Shown here: one piece after another, positions 933-31,553 of the stretch
Position numbering within the stretch: the first letter of the stretch is position 1
Layout of the letters: every line of letters starts with the position of its first letter
Assembly: GCA_025765615.1 (NCBI GenBank)
Contig: JAIVFJ010000020.1
Location: 310,001 to 374,000 of the forward strand
Reading direction: 5' to 3'
DNA from: Zopfochytrium polystomum
Taxonomy: Eukaryota; Chytridiomycota; Chytridiomycetes; Chytridiales; Chytridiaceae
DNA length: 64,000 nt
Position numbers and translations under genes: made by a program
Notes under the pieces: model-generated
Database searches by the model: none
What the model saw: only the letters and a program-made list of their open reading frames with translations
What the model was told of the DNA's origin: nothing

Positions 933-3900
933 TCACGCAGTGATGCATTTGATTGTCAGCTTTGCGTCCGTATCGGACAAACAGACTCCCCAGTCCTCCT
1001 CGTCTGCCACGATGATAGGAGTTCCCTCAGGATCGACATACTCGAAACTGTCAATCACGACTCTGTCGTCGCCTGCGCCGTCGAGAAGCGCGGTCGCCTT
1101 TTCTTCGAGTTTGCGCACCAGGGACGCGAAGGTTATGTTCCGAGAAATCTTGACCGCAACAAAGAAGTCCGCCATCAAGAAGTATGCCTTGACCTGGACA
1201 AAACGGTCTTCGATTTCGCGACGAGTCGTTGGACCACCAAGCGAATGCGAGCGGAGTAGCGCGGAGCGGCGAGAGACATCTCTCTCCCGGTTTGATCTTC
1301 CTCGCCCCCTGTCATCCTCATCGTCGTCATTTCCATTTTCATACTCGTCATCCGTACTGAAGCGTTTTGACGGCGCGGGCCGTGGGGGTGTCGCCTTCTC
1401 TGTGTTGTTGCGTCGCAAGCTGGAGCTTCGAGCGGGGCGCTCCCGGCTGGGCGAGCGACGTCTGGTGGCAGGGGGGGAAGCTCCACGAGATTCCCATGGG
1501 CGTGATATGGATTCCAAATTGGCCGGGGCGGAGGCCTCCCAATCGCGAACCGACCGTGAACCAGACGGCGATCGTGCAGGGGCCGGTCTCCGGGGATCTA
1601 CTCTTTCCAGAAGGGTTGGTCCTTCCCCAGAATCCATCATGATACCACCTGCGCTTCGAGAAAGTAAGCGATCGTATGGACTTGATGTAACAGTTGCACC
1701 CTTGCGCAGTGGGCGTTGTTCATATCGGTCTCCACTCGACCCCTCAACGAAGTCGTTCCTCTTTGGTGCAGTTGGTAGTGACTTGCTCCATAGTGGGGCT
1801 GAATTCGGTGGAAGTCGGCCAAGGGATGATGGGTATACCTGAACCACATCGTCCGGAGGAAGGTCCTCTGGGTAGTCCACGTCTGCATCCCCATACCTCC
1901 TTCCCCACTCCTGCAGGCGGCTCCCATCGGCAGTATTATTCCTTTGCAGTCGGCCCGAATCCAGCGAAGCACCCCCACTGCGAGTGATTTCGCGAACGAC
2001 CGCAGCCGTTCTATTCCACGGTGCGACCGCGTCTATAGTTGGTCCTGCGTCGTTGTCCGGACCATCCGCTGCGTTGGCGACAATTTCCTTCACTTTTGGT
2101 CGCGACATTGATCTGGACCGGTACACGTTCGGCGTACCCCTGGAAGGGCTTCGGCTCTTGCTGTCGTCTGAGGGGCGGGAGACTGTGCGGGCGCGTCCAC
2201 GATCTAATGTAACTACTCTGAAGTCCTCTTCCGGTCGCAAAGGGATTGGTTCCATTTTTTCAGGCCGCCGCGAATTTTCCAAGCCGACGGGGTCAGAGAT
2301 GACTTGAGCCGACATAACAGTGTTCTCATTCAAGTTCGACTTATTTCGGCGAAGTGTCCGATTGATCGTCCCGATGACCATGGAGCGGAGCGAGGACTTC
2401 CCCTTGGAAGCCTGTGGTGGGTCCGGGGATGGTGATGGTGTACTGGAAGAAGGCATGCCATCTCTGCTACGGAATTCATCACGAGGGCTGAAACGAGCAT
2501 CGTCTCGTTGGTAAAAGTCCGCCATGGCGCCGTTCCGTGAATCTTCTCGGCTGTTTTTATAATAGTCGATTGGGTTGATCAGTTTCTCTGAGGCGATTTG
2601 ATTAGCTCGGTCCCTCCGTCGCTGGTACAAGTCCGGATCTGCGTCCCGTAATGGGCTCCTATTTTCCATCGAACCAGATCGCCATTGTGGGTCGTCACGA
2701 TCGTTCCAACTCGGTTGATTGTCATTTATACCGAATAATTTTTGGTTCGACACTTTGTTGTGGGTGTAATCATTCGAGAGCTCGCCAGACCGTCGTCCGC
2801 TTTCATCGCTTTCCGCCTCTGGGTCGCTTTTGTCGTCCTGGAAGCTACCTGCATCAGCAAAAGATGAGCCCCGCCTTTTACTGAAGTCGCCAAATGCCTG
2901 CCCAATGAATGACGGTGGTGGGGCCCTCTGCTCTTTAACTTGAGACACATCGTTCACCCACGCCGTCGTCACCTTTATGCGCGAGTTCTTTCGACGATTA
3001 TTCCCAGGCAGCCCTGTGTCCCCACGAGCATCACCATCAGCGCCAACGCCACGTCTTCCAGAACGTGCCGCTTTTGCCAGGGCCGCTAAATCGACGTCCA
3101 AAGACGATGAGTTTCGAGCGGGAATATTTGGGTAAGGGTTAGCTCCGCCCGCGGCGCCAGGCTCCGGAAGACGTTTTGTTCGTCTCTCGCCTACAGCCTC
3201 AGACGGGGTGATTTCGCTTAATGCAACTGTTGATTCCATAACACTTTGATCTTCTTTTATCGAAGCTGGGCGAGAGGCCTCCGCCAATCCCCGTTTTATG
3301 ACGATTGGTGCATCCTCTCTCCTCGACACTACGGACTCACGGAGGGAGGAGACTGGCCTGCGAGGTGCGGGTGCGGTGGGAGCCCTTCGAGTGGTGGGAG
3401 CCCAGAAGTTGCCGTCATCAATAAGGGGACCAGTAATATTCGTCATTGTTTCGAAAGCGTTTTCGTCCTCATCGTCGTATGCATACGAGGCGACTGTCCT
3501 TCGCTTCTCCTCAGTATCATCAGCTGCATCATCAGGATTATTTCCGTACCCAGTCAGCTTTGCAAGGTACGATGTCAGTTGGGCGGCAACTGTTGCTGGG
3601 GTTGGAGCGGGAGTTGATGGCGGCTCCGGTGAGGACGTAGCCAGAGGGGGCGGCGTTCCATTTGGTTCTGACTGCAGATCCTGCACGATGGCCCCATCAG
3701 CAACTAGGACTTTCGGCTCCACGCGACGCTTTGGGGCCGCAAGAAGGCCACCGCTTTGAGGACCCGCAGACATAACAAAGGGAGGGGGAGGCGACGGCGA
3801 GCGCGAACTGGTTGATTCCTCAGCTTCAAACTGCGCTGCTGGTTCTTCGCGTTGACGGGGTGCGGTTGCCACTTTTAGGTCCTTGACGTCACTTTTCCTC

Positions 3901-5515
3901 ACTGTGGAGGTTGGGACAATGTCCAAACGAGACGAAGAACGTGCAGATATTGGCGGCCGAGCGGAACCGGGCAATGGCTGAGGTTGTATTGGAGCAGATC
4001 CACTTCTTGCCCTGACATCGAGCACTTCATTCTTCACCGATGCTGGCTTGGTGTTCACCGGCTCCCGCGACGGTAGTGAAGCTTTCGACTCGGAATTTGA
4101 TCGCGCCAGACCATCGTTGGGCGAAGGATCCGATTGGCCCGCCAAAATAGCTAAAGAGGTAGATCGGGTTCCGACATTAATCGGCGTTTGGGGCAGAGGT
4201 CGACTCTTTTTCTTTGTGACTCGCTTGCCGGCAGATGGCACATCGGCATCGGAACTTGTCCTCACAGTCAATTCTTCGCGTTTCTTTTGGCGCTTCTTTT
4301 CGTCTGCGGCTCTGTTCACTTCAACTGTACAGTTAGATTAAGAACGTTTTCCCCTTGGATTAGACACTTACGTGAGGCAAGAACTTGGTTGTACAAGGGT
4401 GCGTTAACCTCCCCTCCCTGAAGATCTGCGTCTGCCACCGCCGACGCAACCACAAACTTTCTAGCAACGACACTGTTTCGTGGTGGTCCTTTTGCCGCCT
4501 CGTCGTAAAGCGCACTTATCACTTGATTTAAAGCCGAGGACGAAACAGTTTCATCATTGGCACTTTGAATCTTAGGAAGCAGACTTCCTCGGCGGTTGGA
4601 GTCGTCAGAGGAAAGGTCATTCATTTGTCGGGACATACGGCGCCGCTGCTCGATCGGTGCCAGCCAGTCTTCTTCCAGTGGGGCATCGTCGTCGCCAGCG
4701 AATCCAACTCGACGTCCCTTGTTTTTCGGTTTAAGTGTAAGAATCCCGTTCCCCGTTATAGCAGCCGGATTTCCCTCCCCACTGTACAAGGTTCCCTTGG
4801 ATGGATTTGAAGAGAAGATGTTTGCGGTTGGCGGCGGGTTACTCGTTTTTCCTCGAACATCGCGGCTGTCGGAATTGCCATTCCGTCGACCCAAAGTTAT
4901 GGGCCTGAAAAGTGCCCCAGGTCGCCAGTTCGATCGTGCTTTGACTTGGTCAGGCTGTATTCGTCGGCGGGTGGCTTCCCAGTCTGACGGGGATGGGGAG
5001 AAGAAATCATTGATGAAATCCAACGACCAGATAACTGGAGATAAGGACATAACATCCTGAAGGTACATATCGAGCAGTGTGACCCTCTCCTCGTTGTCCT
5101 CCTGGGTGGTTACTTTCCGCCTTTTGGGGAGGGTGAGGAAGGAGAGCGACTGTTTACGCTTCTTGTCGAGGAGAATAGCATCCTGATTCTTCGCATGCAG
5201 AAGGTGGTCTTGAAGCTTTGCATTAAACGCAAAGAATTCTTCAAACGATCGCCGAATGCACAGTGCGTGCGATGAAGGAGCGTTCATGTTGGCAGGCAGA
5301 GGCTTATTTGTTGAGATCGTAATGACGAAGAGAGTGGCAGAAGTATCGGTCGGCGACGCTAGCAAATCGTCCTCCCAGCCAACAACGTGAACATCCTTGA
5401 ACGGGACATCCGAGGCTTGGGACTGCAGATCGCGGGGAGATAGCGGGCGTGCCGCCGTCGGCAGCGGCGACAGCGACGACGGCGATTCCTGCGACGGCCG
5501 CACCTGCTTAGACAT
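933..5515 (-). CDS. PX and PB1 domain scaffold protein (Bem1/p40phox-like architecture)
   Basis: Two exons, 5515-4372 and 4324-933, joined across a 47-nt intron with a GTAAGTG donor and a CTAACTGTACAG branch/acceptor; the phases match and give about 1511 residues. Residues 35-165 form a PX phosphoinositide-binding domain (conserved RRSFEEFFAFNAKL, LP.RR and a terminal FINDFFSP helix). The last 90 residues form a PB1 domain ending in a DPEGTPIIVADEEDWGVCL-type acidic stretch. The roughly 1250 residues between are low-complexity Ser/Pro/Arg-rich sequence with many SP and RSxS sites. PX plus PB1 is the arrangement of yeast Bem1/Scd2 (polarity, Cdc24 binding) and of p40phox, but I see no SH3 domain. 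Start 5515 (MSKQVRPSQ) is the first ATG after an acceptor-like TTTAATTAGCAG at about 5570, so an upstream exon is possible. Confidence 0.75.
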
Positions 5516-5857
5516 GCGACGTCGCTCGTCTGTCTGTTTCCACTCTGCCAAAAAGGCAAGGATACTGCTAATTAAATGCAACAACGACCAGTCAGGCCCG
5601 GTTGGGTGTTGTTGAGAAAAGAATAAGCAAAAACGAAAAAAAATTAAACAGTTGGCAAAAAAACAACACTCAAAGCAGCAGAAACCAGTCTGCAACACCA
5701 CTCTTGCCTTGTGGGACGCAAGTTCCCCAATAAGATGTGAACGTCGATTGTCGAATTCTTTCACTGAGTGCTCGAGGGGAAGCAGGTGCGGGCAACATGA
5801 CGGCGCATTTTCTTATTCAGCGCGGATATTTCTATATTTCAAAACAACATAGGATTG
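5516..5857. promoter_or_regulatory. Spacer between two tandem minus-strand genes
   Basis: About 340 bases that must hold the 3' end of the Zn2Cys6 regulator gene and the promoter of the PX-PB1 gene. It is A-rich with no convincing coding potential. The ORF continuing upstream of 5515 is low quality and may be 5' UTR or an undetected first exon. Confidence 0.35.
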
Positions 5858-10145: not shown

Positions 10146-12118
10146 ATGGCATTGGCGGCAATTTCGGGTGCCAGCCTCAGCCGATCTCGTTACGTGGTCC
10201 CATCTCTGTTCTGCCAACTGCATCGACTGTCCAACGCGTCCCACAGGAGATCCGGTCGCCCCCGGCGCCCCGCACACCCTTCGCACCCCACCGTGCGGTC
10301 TTTCGCCACGGCAATTTCTCCAATGAATTCAGTCGCCGCGGAAAATACAAACGGAAACGACGGCCACGGTGCGCAACCCCAAGCCGCGAGGGCTGCTGTT
10401 ACGACGGAGCAGCCAGATTCGCCCAACAACGTGATACGGCCAAGAAAGGGCTTACGACCTGTGGTCAATGTGCCAACGACGGAAATCACAAACTGGGAGT
10501 CAAGCAATCTTCCGCCAAGCTGGATTGCCTGTTTGAAGTCAGAAGGGATCAGGGAGCCCACGCCTATTCAAAAACAGGTGATGTGTGCCGTGGATTGTTG
10601 TAACAGTTCGCTGACTGAGAGATTATCGTATTTCAGTCTTTTCACGTCATTGCAAGCGGGACAAGCTGCCTTCTTCGCAGCGAAACAGGCTCAGGAAAAA
10701 CTCTAGCGTATTTGCTCCCGCTTCTCCTTCGTCTTCTTCCGTCCACTCTTTCTTTCGTCGTCCGAAAAATCAATCCACTTTCACCCTCGATCATGATTTT
10801 CACTAAGACGGAGCAGGCGTGCCATCACCTCGTTGCTCAGCTCAAATCTCTGCCAGGCCTAGGTCTCAAGTGCATTGTCATACCCCCACCTTCGGATGTT
10901 CCTCAGACGTCGCTTTACTTCCCTGACATCGGCGTCGCCACCCCTGAAACGTTTGTCCGGTATCACCAAAGAAACACCAAACTCTACAAGTTGCTCGCGC
11001 GAACGGAAGGAATTGTATTTGACGAAGCCGATGCGACGGTAACCGCCGAAGTCTCTAAAAAGCTCATCCGCGAAACCTTGGAGATTCGGAAGGTACGGAG
11101 AAGTGGGCCGCAAGGTCGGCCCGAACGGCCACGCCCCTTCCAGTATGTGTTTTCCGCAGCAACGCTGCCAAATGGCAGCGTCAGAGGCTCTCCGAAGAAG
11201 GACACTGTCAAATATCTACTGGGATCTATTCCAGACATCGTTACGGTCGATTCTGCGCACGTTCACTGCCTACCACCGCAATTGGAGCAGCGGTTTGTTT
11301 ATCTTGCATCTGTGTCCCCAATCGGACGGAAACGGCCCGCAGACAGCTCCGAAGGCACAATTGTGCCACCCCTGGAGGAAGTGGATAAGCTGGTCTACGC
11401 GGAGACCGTCTTCCGCGAGAAACTGGACTTACTCTTTCACAAAATGGCTGCGAGCCTAAAATCTGAGCGCAATTCCTCCGCGCTTCTGTCAGACCGATGG
11501 ATCGTGTTTTGCAACGATCGCGAGACGACCGAGCGCGTCCACGCCGCAATCCGGCTCGCAATAACGCGAGGCGAGCTGCGCTCGACGGTGTCGTTCGGAT
11601 ACGTCCACGAAGGCGTGGACGATGAGTGGCGCATCCGCTCAGTCGCCGACTTCGCAACGCCAGAGTACGGGGCCGGAACACAGCCGGAGTTGCACGTGTT
11701 TGTTGCGACGGATGCCGGGTCCCGCGGCATTGATTACCAGTTCGTCTCAACTGTCGTGAACTTTGACTTTCCCACCAACGCCGTCGACTACATGCAGCGC
11801 GCGGGCCGGACGGCTCGGCAGGGACTCGCCGGGACGGTGCTTTCGTTCGTTGCCGCCGAGGATGCCGGGCTTGCTACGCGAATTAAGCACGTAGGCAAAG
11901 GCACGTTTGCTGAGACGGAGAATGGTGGGCGGGGTGTTTTTACTCGAAAGGTGGCCGTAACGAGGAAGGATAAGCGAGACAGAGAGAGGGAGCTGTTCAT
12001 GTTGGAGAAGTTTGAGGCCAGGGGCAAGCTGAAGGAGAAGGGGAAGCAGAAACTGGAGGCTTTGCGACTCGCAATGCTTGAAAGGAATGCAAGTAGAAAG
12101 GAGAAGAAAACCGTGTAA
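10146..12118 (+). CDS. DEAD-box RNA helicase, probably mitochondrial (MRH4-like)
   Basis: Two exons, to 10577 and from 10637, are joined over a 59-nt intron (GTGATG...TATTTCAG) that falls between the Q motif (EPTPIQKQ) and motif I. After splicing motif I reads SETGSGKT, motif II FDEADATV (DEAD), motif III SAATLP, motif V ATDAGSRGIDY and motif VI YMQRAGRTARQG: a complete SF2 helicase core of about 637 residues. The N-terminus is rich in Arg, Ser and Ala with no acidic residues (MALAAISGASLSRSR), as expected of a mitochondrial presequence. With the single-domain layout this suggests an MRH4/DDX28-type role in mitochondrial ribosome assembly. An upstream in-frame ATG at 10101 is possible. The C-terminus is a Lys/Arg-rich tail. 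Confidence 0.88.
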
Positions 12119-14551: not shown

Positions 14552-16546
14552 TTATATGGGGACCGTTCTGTCTGTTCCTCCGTTGCCCTTGCGCGGCCGC
14601 TTTTCCCCCTTGCTTTTGCCCGTCGTCTCCTTCTTCTTTTGCCCCGCCCCACCTCCCACTCCTCCTCCAGTCCCAGCCGGCGCAGTCCCCTTCCGCTTCG
14701 ACTCCCGCTCCGCCATCGACTCGCACCGGCCCCGCTCGCGAATGGGCACATACGCCTTGTCCCCCGGCCCACCGAACCCGCCCGCGTCGCCGCCAAACTC
14801 GGCTTGGATTGCAGGACCGTGACGGGAAAAGAGGGACGCGATGGCGGCGGTAGAGGCGGACAAAGCAGAAGTAGAAGAAGATGATGAAGAAGAAGAAGAA
14901 GAAGAAGAAGAAGAAGATGATGATGATGATGATGCCGAGGAGGAGGAGGAGGAGGAGGAGCCCGGCGAGGTGGCGGAAAGAAGCGCGTGCACCTGTGTCG
15001 CCTTAACGGCGTGCTCGCGCCAGAGCGACCACAGCGCCGTCGTGAGTCGTTCCCGCGCGCCATCATCGTTGTCCTCCGCCACTTTCTTTCCATCGCTGGC
15101 TCCGCCATCGTCGCCGCCGTCTCGGTTGCCGACGCGGAACTGGAGCAGCCCCTCTGGGTATCCGCACTCGACAAGCACAAGGGGAAGCTCCGGGGCCATG
15201 CGGTAAAGCGGGCGGCCTGCGCCCGGCGGGTGCCGAGTCGTGTCGAGCAAATGGTCGACCACGTCGGGGGCCTCGAGACCGCGCCCGACGAGGAAGAGGA
15301 TGGCAACCATGCAACGAACCTGGTGCCAGAGGAACGCGTGGCCTGCGACTTCAAACACGAGGAACGCATCGGGGACGAGCGGCGCCGCGAGGGGTGTGTC
15401 TTCGCTGCCGATGCCATCCGTAATGGGATTCAGAGGTCGCGGCGGCGGCCACGGACGCACGTCGGCAGATAGGATCGTGCGCTCATACTTGAGGTTGGGC
15501 TTGGACGCGTCGATTTTGCAAAAGAAGCGAAAGTCGTGGGCGCCGACGTAGCGCCTTGCGGCGTCGCGCATGCGCTCTACGTCGAGGCCCTCGGCCGGGA
15601 AAAAGTATCTGTATCGGCGGTGGGTGCAGTCGAAGCGAGCATCGAACGAGGGAGGGGCAGGGGACCACGCGAGCACCCGCACGTCGGGAGGGAGCAGCCT
15701 GTTGAGGATGGACACGTACGGGATCTCGGAAAAGCCGTCGGGCACCGGACCTGCGGGCTCGGCGAGGTCCGCTTCGCTGCCTTCGTTGGTGGGGGCGTCT
15801 ACTTGCCCGTCTGCTGTTCCGCTCACCTCGTCGTCGTCCAACACGTCCATGTCAACGTCGCCATTGGCGCCGGCGTCGGCGTCCCCAACCTGGATCTGGC
15901 GGCGGCGCTTCAGCACGTTTGTTCGCGTCACGTCCATGAGCTTTCTCTTCCTGACGCCCCCATCCAACGGCCAGTCGGCGGCGGTTCCCTTAGCGCCGAT
16001 GGGAAGGGCCGATCGAATGTGGAGGCCAAACACCTGTTCAAAGCTGGAGACTCCCTTGTCTGTGCGTCCGCACCGGCTCCAGTGGCAGTCGCGTCGGTTT
16101 GGGATCAGCCTGGCGCGGATGAGTGCGTCAAACAAGACCGCTTCGACGGTCGGCACAGTATCTGCCTCCTGCGAGGCCAGCCCATGGTACGACCAGCCGA
16201 GGTACGCGACTTTCAAGGCGATGGGTCGGCAAGAGTGCTTTGAAAAGTCAAAGACGCGAGGCTCCTTTTTCTTGCGACGAGCCGCTTGATCCGCAGGCGG
16301 TTCAGCCAGAGCGTCGGCAGCCGCCGCAGTACTTTTGTTGGCTGTGTTGTTTGATTCGTGCCCCGCTGCTGTGGGTGGCAGAACAGGTTGGCCGATCGCA
16401 TCCTTGGATCGCAGCGACTCTTCGAGCTGTCTGATTCGCGCGATCAACTGCGGTGTAGACCAATCCGCGTAGTCCACGTCCCCAGCGACCGAGCGATCTG
16501 AAACTGCAATGTCGTGCCTGGGCAGGCCCTGGCCGCCGCTATCCAT
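14552..16546 (-). CDS. PUS3: tRNA pseudouridine(38/39) synthase
   Basis: An apparently intron-less ORF of about 664 residues from ATG 16546 (an in-frame ATG at 16639 is less likely). It contains the TruA-family core: KVAYLGWSYHGLASQ, the catalytic-Asp motif CGRTDKGVSSFEQV, NRLLPPDVRVLAW, the Arg/Tyr-rich FDCTHRRYRYFF and the late AFLWHQVRCMVAILFLVG motif. The combination and the preceding KHSCRPIAL stretch match the eukaryotic DEG1/PUS3 branch, which isomerises U38/U39 in the tRNA anticodon stem. Two features are unusual: an acidic, low-complexity insert between the TDKGVS and NRLLPP motifs, and a poly-Ser tract of about 30 residues near the C-terminus encoded by GAA/GAG-type triplet repeats on the plus strand (14870-14960). 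Confidence 0.92.
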   Translation of the reverse strand: MDSGGQGLPRHDIAVSDRSVAGDVDYADWSTPQLIARIRQLEESLRSKDAIGQPVLPPTAAGHESNNTANKSTAAAADALAEPPADQAARRKKKEPRVFDFSKHSCRPIALKVAYLGWSYHGLASQEADTVPTVEAVLFDALIRARLIPNRRDCHWSRCGRTDKGVSSFEQVFGLHIRSALPIGAKGTAADWPLDGGVRKRKLMDVTRTNVLKRRRQIQVGDADAGANGDVDMDVLDDDEVSGTADGQVDAPTNEGSEADLAEPAGPVPDGFSEIPYVSILNRLLPPDVRVLAWSPAPPSFDARFDCTHRRYRYFFPAEGLDVERMRDAARRYVGAHDFRFFCKIDASKPNLKYERTILSADVRPWPPPRPLNPITDGIGSEDTPLAAPLVPDAFLVFEVAGHAFLWHQVRCMVAILFLVGRGLEAPDVVDHLLDTTRHPPGAGRPLYRMAPELPLVLVECGYPEGLLQFRVGNRDGGDDGGASDGKKVAEDNDDGARERLTTALWSLWREHAVKATQVHALLSATSPGSSSSSSSSASSSSSSSSSSSSSSSSSSSSTSALSASTAAIASLFSRHGPAIQAEFGGDAGGFGGPGDKAYVPIRERGRCESMAERESKRKGTAPAGTGGGVGGGAGQKKKETTGKSKGEKRPRKGNGGTDRTVPI
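14868..14960. repeat. Triplet repeat encoding poly-Ser in PUS3
   Basis: Imperfect GAA, GAT and GAG triplets on the plus strand read as Ser codons on the coding (minus) strand. The tract lies in a non-catalytic tail and is expected to vary in length between strains. Confidence 0.7.
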
Positions 16547-17527
16547 CGCGGCGATTATCGACGGGCGAGGTCTGGCGCTGCTGTCACTTGAATGTGCACT
16601 CCCGCCGCACGGCAATGTCGGAGGGTTTTGGAAGCGCAAGGGCGACGGCGAGGATGATTTCGAGGCCTCACTGTGGCTCCTCCACCTCCTCGTCGCAGTT
16701 GCAGTTGCAGCTGTTGTTGCAGCTGTTGTTGTTGCTGTTGTTGTTGCTGTTGTTGGAGCACGAGCCGCAGCAGCAGCGGGGGCAAAGCGGCGCGCGGGGG
16801 TGGCGACGGCTGTTCTTGCTGATGCAGCAATCGCAATCGCAATCGCAATCGCAGACGCAGACGACGTGGGGGGCAGTGATGAGTGGGTTTTGGTCGTTAG
16901 GAAGGGGTTGGGTTGGGTCGATGGCTGGTCGGGGCGGCGGGTCGGTCGCTAGGCGGCGAGCTGCATTCAATAAGCGAAGTTATTTATTTTACTTTCTTTT
17001 CTTTCAACAGAAACAACAACAAGGCAAAAACGTTCGGCCCCCGAAAACCAACCCGCAAGGTCGAAAACCAACCCGCAAGCCCGCCCGCGTGCGTCTTCCG
17101 CTGCAGGTGGATGTTACTCACCACAAACCAACAGGATCTCTGTTGATTGCGATGGACTTGGAATCAATGAGCTGCACAACACCAGTCAAAATGGAACATC
17201 CGAAGCCTTCAATATGCCATGGGGGGCTACTGCATGGGCGTACAGTCTCACTCGGCAAAAGGTTTGCGTGGTTGACTGCTTAGCCTGTTGGGGTCCGATG
17301 GTGAGACAGCGGAGCTTGTGAAGCCTTTTGTTTGCACACTTCAGAATGGGACAAAGCTTCGAAGCAGCCACAACTCCACACAAGGAAATTGTTGCAGCGG
17401 AAGGATGGTTAACCCCCTCACAAGAGCCTAGCTGGGAAAGCATGGGGGGTCTGGGAACCTGTCACTCAAGTGTTTTTTTTTTTTATTTTTCGACGAAGTC
17501 TTCTTGTAGGGTGCGACCTTCCTCCAC
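16547..17527. other. Spacer upstream of PUS3 with GTT/GCT and CAATCG repeats
   Basis: Nearly 1 kb without a supportable gene. It holds a GTT/GCT triplet array at about 16690-16760, a short tandem of AATCGC units at 16829-16855 and a direct repeat of the string TCGAAAACCAACCCGCAAG-like at about 17041-17080. It must contain the PUS3 promoter and the 3' UTR of the NLR-like gene. A plus-strand ORF across 16588-17283 is largely repeat-driven and was not accepted. Confidence 0.4.
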
Positions 17528-20500
17528 CTAGTGCGTGACTCCGCCGCTTCGCGTCAGCAAGTCCTGCACCTCGGCGCCGCGCGCAAGGCCGAGCGGCGTC
17601 TCGCCGCGGTTCGTCCGCGCATTCACGCTCGCCCCGTGTTCGAGCAGGAACTGCACCACCTCCGCGTGCTCGCTCTTCGCCGCAATATGCAGCGGCGTCC
17701 AATCTTCGTTCTGCCGTCCGTCCACCGCCGCGCCCTTCTGTATCAGGTACCGCACAATGTCGAGGTATCCGAACGACGCTGCCATGTACAGCGGCGTGCA
17801 CCCGTCGGCGTGCCGCACGTCAACGACCTCGTCCCTCCCGCCGTTACGCACCAGCTGCTTAACCACTTCGACGCTGCCCCCCCCAACACGCAACGTGGAT
17901 CGGCGCCCAGCGGTCCTCCCGCATCGTCCGCACGCTCGCGCCGTGCTCCAGCAGGCACCGCACCACCGCCGCCTCGCCTGTCTGCGACGCAATGTACACC
18001 GGCGTGCACATCTCCCGCTGCGCCGCGTCCACCTCCGCTCCTCCGCGCAGCAGCCGCCGCACCACCGACAGCCGCCCCAACCGCGCCGCCACGTACAGCG
18101 GAGTCCGCCCCTCGCGCTGTCGCGCGTCCACCGCCGCCCCGCGCTTCAGCAGCACGTCTACCACCTCGATTCGGTCGTACAGCGACGCAATGTGCAGAGC
18201 CGTGTGCTCGTCGTCGTCGGCCGCGTCGACCAAAGCGACCGGCGCTCCACCCTCCGGCGCCGCCTTGTGCTGCCACTGCGGCCTCGTAATCGCTGCCGCC
18301 GCAGGTCCCCCAAGAAGCGCCTCGGCAACGGCCGTGTGCCCCTGCCACGCCGCAAGATGCAGCGGCGTGCGCCGCCTCGCGTCGCGCGCGTTCGCCGGCG
18401 CACCGTGCTGCAGCAGCAACCGCACGACATCGGCGTGACCGCGGAAAGAAGCGACGTGCAGCGGCGTCCACCCGTCGCTGGGCCGCGCCGCGTCCGTACG
18501 CGCGCCGCGTGCCAGTAGCCACGCGGCTGTCTCGGTGCGGCCGCTGCGGGCGGCGATGTAGAGTGGCGTGCGAGAGGCTGTGTCGGGCTCGTCGATTGAC
18601 GTTGCGCCAGCCAGCCACGCGGCCAATGCGTATTCGTCTTGATCCGCTGCTTCAAAGACAACATGAGTCGTTTCGGTTTCCTCGACCTAAATTTTTTTTT
18701 TTTTTTTTTTTTTTTTCCGTTTTGGTTTACCCCACACCCAAGCTGAGTTAGATTGCTTTTGCGAGCAAGCGGCAAAAACGACATGGGAAAAAAACATACA
18801 CTAACATGCTGGTTTCCCCACTCGAAAAAGGCGAGGTAGCAGTTTTTGTCCTCGGCGGTCGTGTCGTCTGAGTCTCGAAGCGTAGCATCCGCGCCCATTG
18901 CGAGCAGCCGCAGCACCGTCTCGGGGTGGTTGCCCCTCGCTGCGACCATCAGCACCGTCATGTTCTTCTCACCGCACTCTCCGTGCTCCCCCCACGTTTT
19001 GCCTCTCGCGTTGATGTCCTCGCCGCCCACTTGTATCAACGCTGCTGCCGCATTCGTCATTCCACGACGCGCGGCCTCGTACACTGGCGTCGACATGAAG
19101 ACGTCCAGGTCCGCCGCGGCGCGGACCAAAGGCCCAGCGGGCGCCGCGGTCGTTTCCACTTTACCGCCGACGTCGGCGTCGTCGTCGACGTTGGCCTCGG
19201 CCGCCTCGACGAGAATGCACTCAGCGGCGTGGTCCTTGCCGGCGGAAATCGCGCAGCACAGCGCCGCGGGACCGTATCGGTCCAGCCGGCAGAACTCGGC
19301 AAACTCCTCAGACCCAACGAGCGACGATTTGCTCACCTCTTCGACGTGGTGCAGCCAATACCGAAATGCGTACTGCGCGTGGTCGCGGCTGGGCACGAAC
19401 CCTGGCTTGGCGCTGAGCGCTTCAAACTTGTTCCTCATCGACTCGGTCGGCAGCTCGCCGGATATGGTCCTGATGCAGTGCTTTGCTAGGATTCGTTGGC
19501 AGTGCGAGATGTCCAGCAGGAATCGAGGGTCCTTGCACCGCTCAGGCGAAGTGAGGTAATCGGCGAGACTCTTGTGCATCAGCCGGATTTTGCCTCTGTC
19601 GCTCATGTCCAAAATTCTGCGGATCTGAGAAAATGTTTTCAACAGGTCAGGTTGCGAGCCATGGGAAAGATGTGGATCAGTGCAAAGAAAAAATTGTAAA
19701 TACTTACCTCGAGAAGAACCAACCCCACGTCGGGGCTGTTCACGTCCAAAATCTCCGTGATCATTGATTTGGTGAGGGGCTCCTTCGCCGCGCAAACGAG
19801 ACCCATCACCGATCGAAAGTACTTCAGGTTGGTTACTTCGCACCTGTCGAAAAACTGCGTGTAGACGCCGTCCAGTCCAGTCTCGAACGTCCTGATCGCT
19901 GCAAGCACTTCGCTCGCAGAGTACTGCAGGAGCTGCTCCGTGGCAAAGCGAGCAAACTGAAAAATGCCGGCCGAGCGCGCAAACACTTCGTCCTTGACTT
20001 GATTGAGCTGGTCGCGGCTCAGCTCGTCGCACGAAAACCTGTCGCGCAGAATCGCGGTCGCGAGCAGGTCCATGTCCTTTCTGTTCTCGTCGTCGTCCGG
20101 CAGCAGCACCACCGTCGGCACCTGCTCCATGGCCGCGAAAATGTCCTCGTCCGGCCGGCTCGTGACAAAGATCCGCACAAACGGCGGCAGCTCCACCGCC
20201 TCCACCGACAAAACCGCCAGCAGGTCCTCGCGCCGCTTCTCCCGCGGCCGTCCGCACTCGTCCAGCGCGTCCACGACAATGAGCACCACCCCGCCGTCGT
20301 CCACTTCCCCCGCGGCCTCCACTCGCTTCAGCCCGTCCACGACGACCGCCTGGAACGCCTGCCGCGCGTTCGCGAGCACGCTCGCCCGCCCGCCGCTTCC
20401 AGCCTGGCGCCGCATCCGCTCCACGTCCTCGGCCATCACCGCCACCGCGTGCGCGCGGAACGCCGCGAACCGCTGCGCCAGCCCGTACGCGATGCTCGCG

Positions 20501-22497
20501 ACCGCTCGCGCCGCGTTGCTCTTCTCCGCGTCGTTGTGCCGGCAAAAGAACGCGCTGCCCAGCGTCGCGTGCGCGGGGAGCTCCGAGCTCGCCAACCACG
20601 CGATCGTCGATTTGCCCAGCCCCGCCCCGCCGTACAGCCAGAGCACTGTCGACGGCGGCGGCGGCGACGGCGGCGACGGCGGCGGCGAAGTCGAGGTCGA
20701 GGTCGAGGTCGAGGTCGGGGTCGACGGGACGGGTGGGTCCAGCCACGCGTGGATCTGCTCGAGATAGTAGCGGCGCGTGCCGTGCACGTAGTTTTTCGCG
20801 TACTGCAGCTTGTCGTTGGAAAAGTCGTTCGGCTGGAGCCAGCTTTCGAGCGTGGGTGCCGCCGAACCGGCGGCGGACGCTGGGGTTGGCGGCGACGCGT
20901 TGTTCAGAGCCTGGGCCTGGATCTCGGCTTTCCGCTTGTTTATTTCGGCGACGAGAAGATCCATGGACGTTTCCCACTTTGAAGAACCGTACGGTCGGTC
21001 ATAAAAGTCTGCATACAACAGGCTGGATAAGGGGCAGGTTCTGTCAGCGACGGTCGAAGCGAACAAAAGATTGGATTCGGAGAAAAAAACGGACCTTGAG
21101 GTGAGGATGAAAGCCTCGCCTCTGCGCTGCTCCCCGTCTTTGATCAGGTTGATGGGCACAATGGGCTTCCCCGCGTCGCTGGCATAACGAATCTCACGCA
21201 GGCAGTTTCTTGAAGCCTGAAAAGTTGACCGGCTTCAAATCAGCGACTTGAAGACAGTACAAGCTCGTGAGGAGTCTATCTCACTTGGTAAGCCTCGGTT
21301 AAGGCAGGAATGAAAACGATGCTGCCATCAATGCCTCTGGCCATCGCGTCATAGATGGATCCGCTCATGGCATTTGCATCGATCCAGATGTTTAAATTGT
21401 GCTTGTCGGTCAGGTCTTTATGAATTTGGTGCACTTCTGCTTTGCTTCCGTGGCTGAAGTTTCAAAGTATTAGTTATACGGTATATAAATATAAAGGTTG
21501 TCAGGCGAGAAACGCAAAACACAGAGAGACGAAAAATACATACTGATACGAAAGAAAGCCATCGAAATCAGTCGCGAGCGACTTGTTTGAGCCAGTCGTT
21601 GTTGCATGGCGGGAGCTGGTGGCAGGTGGTGAGGCTGGCGGTGTCGGGTTGGCCGACGGGGCAGACCCAGGTAGGCTCGACTTTGCTGGAGTCGGCGTTG
21701 ATGAACATGGCAAGGCCCCGTGTGTGGTGTCCGAGGTGGGAGACAACGGCGGGATTGGCGGCGGCGGGACGGATTGCGAGGCCACTGCTTTGGACAGCAC
21801 CTTGAGGTAGATGATGTTTGGATGCTGAGAGCCCTTGATGAAATCCCGAACAATCCTGTCGCTGAGGTTGGTGATGTCGATTGCCCTTCCTGCGTCCATG
21901 ACCATAATCGAAATAGCGGTCTTGTCCGAAAACTGATCCGAGCTTGCAAGAATCTATAAGTTACGGAATTTAGCGAGCTGCAAAAGGAGAAAAAAAAAAA
22001 GAGAAAAAAAAAAAAAAAGAATCCAGTCACCGCTTTCAATAGCCCTTCTTTATCGGGAGTTGATAGCTGCAAAATCTGATGAATATCGTCTCCAGGAAAG
22101 AGCACCGCCACATAGCGTCGCTTTCCTTTTATCATGTCTTTCAGACGCAGCAAGCCGTGTTTGATGGTTCCTGGTGGAGTTGTTGTGGGAGTTGGTGAGG
22201 AGGACGGGGCATGGTTAGCGAATGAGACTTGCCGACTGGGCCACCACTCCCCACGCACACGGACGTACCACCCTGCGTACCACCAGAGCGCGCATTTCTG
22301 CCGCGAGAAGCGGGTGGAATCAAGAACGTTGCGTCGTCCGCGATCGTTGTGGACTCTGCATCCGCCCAGGTGGCGGTCGATTCGTTTCCCATCGATGAAT
22401 GAAATGACGCTGCTGTCTCGCTGATCGCCGAAAGTACTGAACCTGCTCCTCCTCTCTTTGGCCTGGGCTGGGGGCAGGGCTGGAGGGTGCTGCTCAT
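17528..22497 (-). CDS. TIR-NACHT-ankyrin NLR-like receptor
   Basis: Eight exons are read on the minus strand: 22497-22269, 22170-22031, 21953-21544, 21453-21285, 21216-21095, 21022-19708, 19624-18800, 18686-17528. All junctions have GT/AG ends and matching phases. Residues about 255-385 form a TIR domain: FLSYH strand, IWID, SGSIYDAMARGIDGSIVFI, then SRNCLREIRYA, whose Glu aligns with the catalytic Glu of NAD-cleaving TIRs. Residues 485-655 are a NACHT NTPase with P-loop GGAGLGKST, Walker B VLIVVDALDECG and a FVTSRPDED sensor motif. A helical region with HKSLADYL follows, then two ankyrin repeats in exon 7 and ten in exon 8, about 1455 residues in all. The first 250 residues hold an unrecognised domain plus a Pro/Thr linker. 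Ankyrin repeat 9 of 12 is broken by an 8-base C run (17877-17884): removing one base restores the frame. Likely role: intracellular sensor of foreign or damage signals. Confidence 0.85.
17877..17884 (-). other. Frame-breaking homopolymer in the ankyrin region
   Basis: Eight consecutive C (G on the coding strand). With eight, the frame reads HVACWGG then QRRSG and stops at 17859. With seven it reads HVACWGGSVEVVKQLV, a perfect ankyrin continuation, and stays open to 17528. Either the assembly has one extra base or the allele is truncated. Confidence 0.75.
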
Positions 22498-29252: not shown

Positions 29253-31553
29253 ATGCAGCGCCAGGGGTCCATCGGAAGCGGCAGCGTCAACATCTACCCT
29301 CACCAGCGAATCGCACAGCAGCCGCGCCACAACAACCACCAAGATGTTCACGTCCAGTACCTCTCCAACTCGAGCTCGCAGGCCCCCCTTCGCAAGAACT
29401 CGCAGCCCGCCGTGGACTACGCCTACAACGGCCGCATCCAGACCGTCGGCCAGAAGCGCGCCCGCGCATTTGCGCTCCTCGACGAAGCCGAGCTGGGTTC
29501 GTTGGAACTTCTTTTTGGGGATCCATTGTGGATGGAGGGAGAAGGCGCTGGAGGTTTGAGTGTGTTGAGAGGAGTGAGAAGGAGCGAAAGCTTTGAGTGA
29601 ATCCAAAAAAAAAAAAAATGCTGACGTGTTGCGCGTAAACCATTCGCATTCCACTAGGCTGGTTCCACTTGCGCGCCGTGCTGGTATCGGGCGCCGGGTT
29701 CTTTACCGATGCGTACGACATCTTTGTGATTTCACAATGCTTGCCGATGATGTGAGTCCCGCTTCGATTTGCTCTCTCGGCCTTTTTTTCTGACTTCGGC
29801 TCGTCTCGTCTTGTCTTTCCCTTCCGTGCTGAGAAAAAAAGCTACCAAATCTATTACAGCTCTTACGTCAAAGGTTGGAAAATTGCTTGTCCCTGCGTCG
29901 TGGACTGCATCCGACTAACACGCTGTGGCAAACCCCCCAGGCTCCTACCCGGCACGATTCGTGAATGCCTCAGCTCCCTTCAACGCAAACTACACCTACA
30001 CTCCGCAACAAGGTATTTATTTCTGCTGCCCATTATTCTCTACTTCCATTGCTTTTGTCTGTGAACGACAAATGTACGTCACATCCTACCTAACCCATCG
30101 TTCATCAACAACAGTTCTCACCGATTGGGTCAACTCTGGCAACAACAAACACCTCGACGCGCTCCTCAAGGCATCCACCAATTGGGGAAACTTTATCGGC
30201 CAACTCCTCTTTGGCTACCTCGGCGACAAGCTGGGCCGCAAGCGCATGTACGGCATTGAACTCATGATCATGATCTTTTGTACCGTCTGCACGGCGATGG
30301 CAGCCCCTGCCGCCCGCGGTCTCTCCATAATCGCCGCGCTGTCGGTCTGGCGCTTTTTCCTCGGCATTGGCATCGGCGGCGACTACCCAATGTCGGCCAT
30401 CATCACGTCCGAGTTTGCCAACGTGCGCTACCGAGGAATGATGATAGCCGCCGTGTTCGCGATGCAGGGCATCGGCATCCTGATTGGCGGACTCGTCTTC
30501 GTCGTCACGCTGCTCTACATGAAGCCCTACATCGTCGAAGACTTTATGAACCTTGACTACGTGTGGCGCATCGCGCTCGGCACCGGTGTCATCCCCGCCG
30601 CAATCGCGCTCTACTTCCGTCTGACCATCCCCGAGACCCCGCGCTACACCGTCGACGTCGTCGGCGACGCGGAAAAGGCCGAGCGCGACGTCGTCAAGGT
30701 CCTCGCGCTCAACCAGGTGCGCGACGTGACGTCCGCGTGGGGGGAGGAGCCCGCCCCGCCGACCACCCGCGTCGCCGTCAAGGGCGACGACTTTACCGAG
30801 TACTTTGGTCAGCCCCGCAACCTGCGCATCTTGCTCGGCACCGCCTACTCGTGGTTCGCGCTCGACATTGCCTGGTACGGACTGACGCTGAACCAAAACA
30901 CTATCCTCAGCTTGATCAACTACAACGGACCCGCAAAGATCTCTGGGTTCTGCGTCCAGAACGGGTCCGACCCACAGTTCTGCCCAGCGCCGTTTGCTGA
31001 CCCCCTCGCAACCGTATTTGACTACCTTTACCCGCGCGCCGTCGGAAACATCATCATTGCGTGCGCGGGAACTGTCCCAGGGTACTGGGTGGCCGTGCTG
31101 CTTATCGAAAAGCTCGGCCGCAAAACAATCCAGTTCGCCGGCTTCATCGTCCTCACGGTCGTCCTGCTGGTCCTCGCCATCTTTTGGTCCACCATCTCCT
31201 CGAACGCAACCTACTTTGTCCTCCTCTTCACCGTCGCGCAGTTCTTCTTCAACTTTGGGCCCAACACGACCACCTTTGTGGTCCCTGGCGAAGTGTTCCC
31301 GACGCGCTGGCGGTCGACCGGCCACGGCATCTCGGCCGCGTGCGGCAAGGTCGGCGCCATCCTGGGCATCCAGGCCGTCGGGCCCTTCTTCAATCAGAAC
31401 CCGCAGCTAGTGCTCTACGTGTTCAGCGCCGTCATGTTGTCCGGGATTTTTGCGACTTTCTTGATTCCGGAGACCAAAGGCAAGACGCTGGAGGAGCTGT
31501 CGCAGGAGGACGGCGTGTTCATCGACTCGACCGAGGTCGTTTACAGGGCTTGA
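29253..31553 (+). CDS. Phosphate:H+ symporter of the MFS (PHO84/PHT1 type)
   Basis: Five exons (29253-29496, 29658-29751, 29860-29873, 29941-30012, 30115-31553) give 620 residues with consistent phases. Exon 3 is only 14 nt. After a hydrophilic N-terminus, TM1 holds GFFTDAYDIFVI, the signature of the phosphate:H+ symporter family. Further family features are LFGYLGDKLGRKRMYG (MFS loop 2-3 motif), GIGIGGDYPMSAIITSEF, ETPRYTVDV after TM6, the second-half TLNQNTILS and the C-terminal PETKGKTLEELS. This is a plasma-membrane importer of inorganic phosphate coupled to protons, normally induced by phosphate starvation. No PHO4-like site was looked for exhaustively. The best-supported start is MQRQGSIGS at 29253. 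Confidence 0.9.
29860..29873 (+). other. 14-nt micro-exon of the phosphate transporter
   Basis: Flanked by CTATTACAG on the left and GTTGGA on the right; the following intron has a GACTAACAC branch-like site. It supplies the residues ISYVKG between the TM1 end and the extracellular loop and keeps the frame (phase 2 in, phase 1 out). Confidence 0.65.

Follow-up and report, generated by a model that had tools for sequence, protein, structure and literature searches.

A 64,000-nucleotide stretch of the genome of the zoosporic fungus Zopfochytrium polystomum (Chytridiomycota; Chytridiales in the NCBI taxonomy; GenBank assembly GCA_025765615.1, contig JAIVFJ010000020.1, positions 310,001 to 374,000; here called the window) carries on its minus strand a gene predicted to encode a TIR domain, a NACHT-type nucleoside triphosphatase (NTPase), and ankyrin repeats in one protein. 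The gene was rebuilt from the sequence at 22497-17528 with eight exons, as the initial annotation had claimed, and seven introns, all of which are GT-AG, with every join in frame. The acceptor of intron 5 was shifted by 18 nt to fit the family, because relatives have T-A-S-L-L-Y-A-D-F or T-A-G-x-L/I-Y at this place. The final model yields 1345 amino acids (aa) before the first stop; the earlier acceptor gave a 1351-aa version, on which Pfam was run. The predicted domain order is PB1-like, TIR, NACHT (NPHP3_N), winged-helix-like, and ankyrin repeats.

Exon 1 (22269..22497, start codon at 22497-22495) encodes an N terminus without a Pfam family match, exon 2 (22031..22170) encodes the first part of the PB1-like domain, and exon 3 (21544..21953) encodes the remainder of that domain (to about aa 176), a Pro/Ser/Thr-rich linker, and the first TIR strand, DFDGFLSY. 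The TIR domain (20995..21569, aa 252 to about 366) is cut by introns 3, 4, and 5. Exon 4 (21285..21453) carries it on from alphaA and includes WIDANAMSGS, which we take to be the BB-loop region, while exon 5 (21095..21216) encodes alphaC with the candidate catalytic residue Glu324 (codon 21195-21193). The end of the TIR domain, a linker, and the NACHT NTPase are encoded by exon 6 (19708..21022), with the NPHP3_N core at 20155..20655. A winged-helix-like region spans intron 6 (19466..19815). Exon 7 (18800..19624) contains the end of the NACHT module and, from about 19090, the first ankyrin repeats, which continue in the main frame in exon 8 (17859..18686).

TIR_2 matched aa 256-372 of the protein at 50.3 bits (cut-off of 28, E value of 4.2e-13), NPHP3_N matched aa 486-652 at 71.2 bits (cut-off of 24.8, E value of 1.5e-19) and was recovered again at 73.5 bits in a genome scan, and Ank_2 reached 184.7 bits. 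The proposal that a TIR domain, NACHT, and ankyrin repeats stand together in one zoosporic fungal gene is thus borne out, including the profile match for TIR. A single uninterrupted 531-aa open reading frame (ORF; 21234-19639) runs from TIR helix alphaC past the NPHP3_N core, so the second half of the TIR domain and the NACHT core belong to the same gene, and this join is independent of splicing. For this half of the domain, the ORF excludes an origin of the TIR exons in another gene. The Walker A (GGAGLGKST, 20631-20605), Walker B (VVDALDEC), and Glu (NCLREIRYA) motifs are intact. With a NACHT-clan NTPase carrying both Walker motifs, C-terminal repeats, and an N-terminal TIR domain, the protein has the makeup of a NOD-like receptor (NLR), or NACHT-type signal transduction ATPase with numerous domains (STAND). 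None of its 13 Pfam matches is to an NB-ARC or LRR family, and by domain content it is not a plant TIR-NB-ARC-LRR receptor (TNL). HTH_TANC1, tried for the winged-helix-like region, scored 18.2 bits against a cut-off of 27 and is therefore not claimed; it reaches 31.3 bits in the deposited relative P0001.

The Glu in SRNCLREIRYA had been named as a candidate catalytic residue, and our results agree with this. Glu324 aligns with the KEIVTA segment of SARM1 in a PDB sequence search (a weak match, E value of 1.1), and the corresponding candidate, E218 of the chytrid relative P0003, is nearly invariant in an 18-row alignment. Because the direct search of the PDB was weak, a fold comparison was needed. 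A TIR fold is seen in the structure model of P0003, where the predicted domain matches SARM1, and the best Foldseek match of the model is the plant TIR-NLR RPP1. These comparisons, with the repeat analysis, are in line with the receptor-like build proposed initially.

Ahead of the TIR domain lies a further domain (about aa 93-176) that the initial annotation overlooked, along with a frame break in the ankyrin repeats. Pfam gave no family match to this segment. In relatives, PB1 (cut-off of 23.6) scored 34.4 bits in P0144, 23.7 in P0158, 20.4 in P0143, and 17.1 in P0004, and Pfam found no PB1 match in P0137 or P0154. The window-type N-terminal profile matched a four-member set of PB1-positive relatives (93.1%, E value of 3.3e-07), and that set matched chains of NBR1 homologs (E value of 1.6e-05) over a stretch that is presumably the PB1 domain of NBR1. 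Residues 20-98 of P0003 are predicted to fold in the order bbabbab (predicted local distance difference test score of about 60-79), which we take to be the PB1/ubiquitin order. Since the window-type profile had no PDB match (best E value of 0.45, to unrelated proteins), the PB1 reading draws on the relatives and on the fold order predicted for P0003; the N-terminal domain of the family looks PB1-like, and we call it so rather than PB1.

About twelve ankyrin repeats had been claimed for the gene. Nine repeat stretches lie in the main frame over exons 7 and 8, but four more (two near-complete, two fragments) lie in another frame after a run of eight G (G8; 17877..17884), in a 118-aa segment (17528..17884) with its stop at 17528. 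We rejected an intron as the cause of the frame change, since the repeats continue in register across it and no plausible GT-AG intron was seen by eye. A second copy of the gene, sought in the assembly to settle the G run, returned just three short matches (75-77% identity). The frame change may be a sequencing error or a real frameshift, between which the sequence does not discriminate.

The gene is not a single curiosity. Profile scans of the 80.16-Mb assembly gave 85 TIR_2 matches (79 above cut-off), 86 PF05729 matches, 28 HET matches, and at least 150 NPHP3_N matches (150 scored out of 231 candidates). A TIR_2 match lies 5' of NPHP3_N within 4 kb on the same strand for 39 of the 150 scored, at a distance of 313-484 nt in 37 of these, and there is no case of TIR_2 just 3' of NPHP3_N (0.3 expected by chance). 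The window gene, with its intron-split TIR domain, falls outside these 39 pairs; its closest paralogs in a protein search are about 45-46% identical.

Twenty of the 39 loci were fetched for paralog analysis. They include three near-identical pairs (97.6-99.4% identity over >6.5 kb), which means that the 39 may include haplotype copies. By profiles built here, an ankyrin array follows NACHT in 14 of the 20, and WD40 repeats are found at L023, L024, L025, and L029. L011 has neither repeat type and a truncated NACHT, and at L014 NACHT is interrupted by about 5.3 kb (L014:1743-7067), with one ankyrin stretch at the locus edge; a 2.2-kb stretch common to L014 and L024 (99.4% identity) may be a mobile element. 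With an in-house TIR profile made from six sequences, the window's own included, 18 of the 19 fetched loci with a TIR match have an intron after AYQ, in the same place as the window gene. The exception is L019, where the whole TIR stretch is in one frame, and L023 gave no match to this profile. A pattern written after inspection of the segments finds the Glu motif at 19 of the 20 loci.

Many matches to the two families stand apart from such pairs. NPHP3_N is missing just downstream of 46 of the 85 TIR_2 matches; judged by eye, the ten best of these lone loci (L001-L010) all keep a Glu motif, mostly as xxEIKFAN, and an ankyrin-like stretch lies close to that of L003. The lone TIR_2 proteins could be partners of the receptors. 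Conversely, 111 of the 150 listed NPHP3_N matches have no TIR_2 within 4 kb 5', and many of them lie in single open frames of >1000 aa. The 541-kb contig C18 has the most matches of any contig, seven to TIR_2 and seven to NPHP3_N.

Relatives outside this genome were sought in two protein searches, which scored the best word-sharing candidates only (7991 and 7995). The first gave 16 matches, of which the six best are all from chytrids. The second, a profile search, gave 71 matches, sorted by in-house profiles into those with TIR and NACHT (20), NACHT only (35), TIR only (4), and neither (12). All 20 two-domain proteins bear chytrid names (Entophlyctis, Obelidium, Siphonaria, Blyttiomyces, Quaeritorhiza, Synchytrium, and Zopfochytrium), and the in-house chytrid TIR profile found no TIR in Dikarya-named matches among the 71. 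Two more, P0002 and P0005, appear in the first list but not in the second; together these make 22 chytrid TIR-NACHT proteins, with C-terminal WD40 repeats in 12, ankyrin repeats in 1 (Entophlyctis P0001), and neither found in 9, some of which are partial models. Over the TIR-NACHT region, identity to the window gene is 38% for P0001, 35% for Polychytrium P0002, and 33% for P0003. The TIR-NACHT-ankyrin order itself is found in P0001, where TIR is incomplete (24.6 bits against the cut-off of 28). A NACHT tree groups the window gene with ten ankyrin paralogs from Z. polystomum and the Entophlyctis protein on a single branch (support 100/98).

Some deposited models are unusual. P0137 (Blyttiomyces) reads TIR-NACHT-TIR-NACHT-TIR in one model, and P0004 (Siphonaria) ends in another TIR-like segment and has a synaptobrevin match. 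In P0154 (Z. polystomum DFJ73DRAFT_375406; L015), a NACHT gene and the beginning of the PB1-like-TIR-NACHT gene downstream of it seem to have been run together. Alignment of this protein to contig C428 of the assembly gives 595, 97, and 118 identities over residues 510-1105, 1105-1202, and 1202-1319, and the other columns are nearly all gaps, as expected of introns. The apparent fusion means that chytrid models deposited for this family may not be reliable.

The ratio of nonsynonymous to synonymous substitution rates (dN/dS) was computed for the 16 of the 20 loci with a NACHT exon complete enough, 13 of which entered the NACHT tree after three near-identical partners were omitted. Of the 120 pairs computed, the 30 most similar include 28 with dN/dS of 0.11-0.23, and the NACHT exons of the paralogs are under purifying selection. 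The arrays of 13 paralog loci have 6-20 usable ankyrin repeats, with mean internal identity of 0.55-0.86. When 62 repeats from seven close paralogs were pooled, most positions were near fixed, and variation was greatest at positions 9 (3.02 bits), 31 (2.53 bits), and 6 (1.79 bits). Arrays of highly similar repeats with few variable positions have been reported for fungal NLRs in passages of PMC9815663 and PMC4986451, and on sequence the paralog arrays resemble them. Several paralogs fit this description, whereas the window gene does not. Paralogs with highly similar repeats look like fast-evolving sensors; the window gene is an older, diverged member of the family, slightly damaged or mis-sequenced.

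We read the window gene as a predicted chytrid TIR-NACHT-ankyrin gene whose product would probably act inside the cell as a TIR-NLR-type immune receptor and cleave NAD+ when triggered. The basis observed for this is the domain order, intact Walker motifs, a conserved candidate catalytic Glu, many paralogs of the same order, and some hypervariable arrays. The class of chytrid TIR-NLR receptors is real and probably working; the NADase, cell-death, and antiviral roles of the window gene itself are predictions. In such a receptor, the ankyrin array would recognize a foreign or disturbed protein, upon which the NACHT NTPase would be released, exchange nucleotide, and oligomerize. The attached TIR domains would then pack together, with active sites forming between neighbors, and would hydrolyze NAD+ or convert it to a signal nucleotide. 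Death or shutdown of the infected compartment would restrict further spread within the thallus and to the zoospores. The PB1-like N terminus probably adds a head-to-tail contact, either for receptor stacking or for docking to a partner. More tentatively, and with somewhat less than even confidence, chytrids may run a plant-like expanded TIR-NLR immunity, in which dozens of PB1-TIR-NACHT receptors defend as NADase resistosomes against mycoviruses or microbes and turnover of repeats diversifies their ankyrin arrays at few hypervariable positions; in Dikarya, this part would largely be played by HET and other effector domains.

Several observations weigh against the receptor reading. The classical NACHT profile PF05729 scored 20.4 bits on the window protein, below its cut-off of 26.7, and is not claimed; the NACHT call comes from NPHP3_N. 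Plant TIRs and SARM1 presumably carry W four residues before the catalytic Glu, and this residue is N in the window TIR. L023 has no Glu motif, and the near-identical pair L020/L021 has dN/dS of 1.79 on dS of 0.004, with the ratio undefined for another near-identical pair. The window array has mean internal identity of 0.47 over six usable repeats and is not of the highly similar kind. The structure model is of P0003, at 33% identity to the window protein over the TIR-NACHT region, with a predicted TM-score (pTM) of 0.48. Its whole-chain match to RPP1 has TM-scores of 0.16/0.26 and a root mean square deviation of 24.9, values so low that a domain arrangement shared with RPP1 is not established. 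The TIRs of Hydra TRR-2 and MyD88, which we take to be nonenzymatic, match the P0003 TIR as well as SARM1 does.

The TIR domain might instead signal without destroying NAD+, as a MyD88-like scaffold that recruits separate TIR proteins or by making a messenger nucleotide for another effector, in the style of plants or Thoeris. We consider this unlikely: a scaffold alone would have no use for the catalytic Glu, yet the residue is conserved in 19 of the 20 fetched TIR-NACHT loci, a point that leaves the messenger version unaffected. The odds are slightly poorer for receptors of self/non-self recognition between strains, in the manner of Podospora HET-domain NLRs and directed at allorecognition after cytoplasmic contact rather than at viruses or microbes. 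HET was found within 4 kb of NPHP3_N in none of the 150 listed matches, and we know of no fusion biology in this chytrid, which also counts against such a role. In its favor, paralog repeat arrays differ in length and at few positions, and fungal HET-NLRs act in heterokaryon incompatibility according to passages of PMC12881547.

Equally poor odds attach to decay of the window gene, in which the ankyrin frame break would mark lost function and only the paralogs would work. The frame change at 17884-17877, the lack of a second copy in the assembly, and the low repeat identity of the array suit this explanation, and they likewise count against a functional receptor at this locus. However, the TIR-NACHT part is unbroken, retains every motif, and shows about 45% identity to the closest paralogs, a G8 run is a typical site of sequence error, and most repeats remain in the main-frame product. 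That the model joins two adjacent genes, one for TIR and one for NACHT-ankyrin, is highly improbable. Deposited chytrid models can fuse neighbors, as P0154 does, but one ORF covers the second half of TIR and the NACHT core, and both domains occur in one deposited protein for 20 of 71 homologs, which largely refutes a fused-gene artifact. Contamination as the origin of the gene was ruled out by its introns, the chytrid matches of a neighboring gene, and family members on many contigs.

That neighbor is a tRNA pseudouridine synthase gene (Pus3-like; 14552-16948, minus strand; PF01416, 90.9 bits), for which the best 32 of 120 listed matches are all from chytrids, the top one from Cladochytrium tenue (55%). 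Elsewhere in the window, Pfam identified a DEAD-box helicase (10619-12118, plus strand) and a sugar-transporter-type major facilitator superfamily protein (29919-31553, plus strand). By eye, two ORFs at 933-5812 (minus strand) resemble a PX-domain protein and a protein with a PB1-like end, perhaps a Bem1-like scaffold.

Knowledge of fungal NLRs comes mainly from Dikarya; the one chytrid genome studied here has at least 150 NACHT-type matches and 39 TIR-NACHT pairs besides the window gene. TIR in NLRs of Chytridiomycota is reported in one sentence of PMC9815663, so the initial view of TIR as unusual for fungal NLRs needs qualification; the passages concerned do not give the architecture, the PB1-like domain, the expansion, or the repeat variation. 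A chytrid TIR-NLR was not found in the parts of PMC6040629 and PMC7075850 consulted. Neither a PB1-TIR-NACHT receptor nor a chytrid TIR-NLR expansion appeared among the papers listed in searches of the open-access literature, by which absence from print is not established. According to passages of PMC4986451, a 2014 survey found no NLRs in the chytrids analyzed and suggested gene loss or divergence. The PF05729 score of the window protein fits divergence, but the 86 PF05729 matches in the genome do not, and perhaps NLRs were just absent from the chytrids available at the time. If the TIR domains are NADases, TIR-NLR immunity would be present in an early fungal branch, and the relation of TIR to fungal HET, discussed as TIR-related in passages of PMC12881547 and PMC5658179, would become testable. 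For Z. polystomum WB228, double-stranded RNA was purified in a virus screen and total RNA was sent for sequencing (passages of PMC7482067), and with this material the gene model and an antiviral role could be examined in a natural host.

Among known systems, the plant TNLs RPP1 and RUN1 share with the window gene a TIR domain followed by a STAND NTPase and a repeat sensor, and a Glu in alphaC. They differ in having NB-ARC rather than an NPHP3_N-type NACHT and LRR rather than ankyrin or WD40 repeats, and the PB1-like domain ahead of TIR belongs to the window gene. SARM1 differs by its ARM and SAM domains and is not known to carry a NACHT. For bacterial antiviral STANDs (Avs3) and other TIR-STAND proteins, P0184 is distant in sequence; this protein, outside the chytrid set, has TIR_2 and NPHP3_N together, and its TIR does not match the chytrid TIR profile. 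Within fungi, the HET-NACHT-WD40 receptors HET-E, HET-D, and HET-R (passages of PMC4986451) are likewise STAND receptors with a TIR-related death domain and repeat arrays, but the window gene has TIR_2, not HET. Passages of PMC9815663 describe a TIR-like, SEFIR-like cluster of unannotated effectors in Pezizomycotina NLRs, which share a TIR-fold domain ahead of a fungal NLR. The chytrid TIR-NLRs mentioned there and the deposited proteins P0001-P0005 and P0137-P0150 belong to the same family as the window gene.

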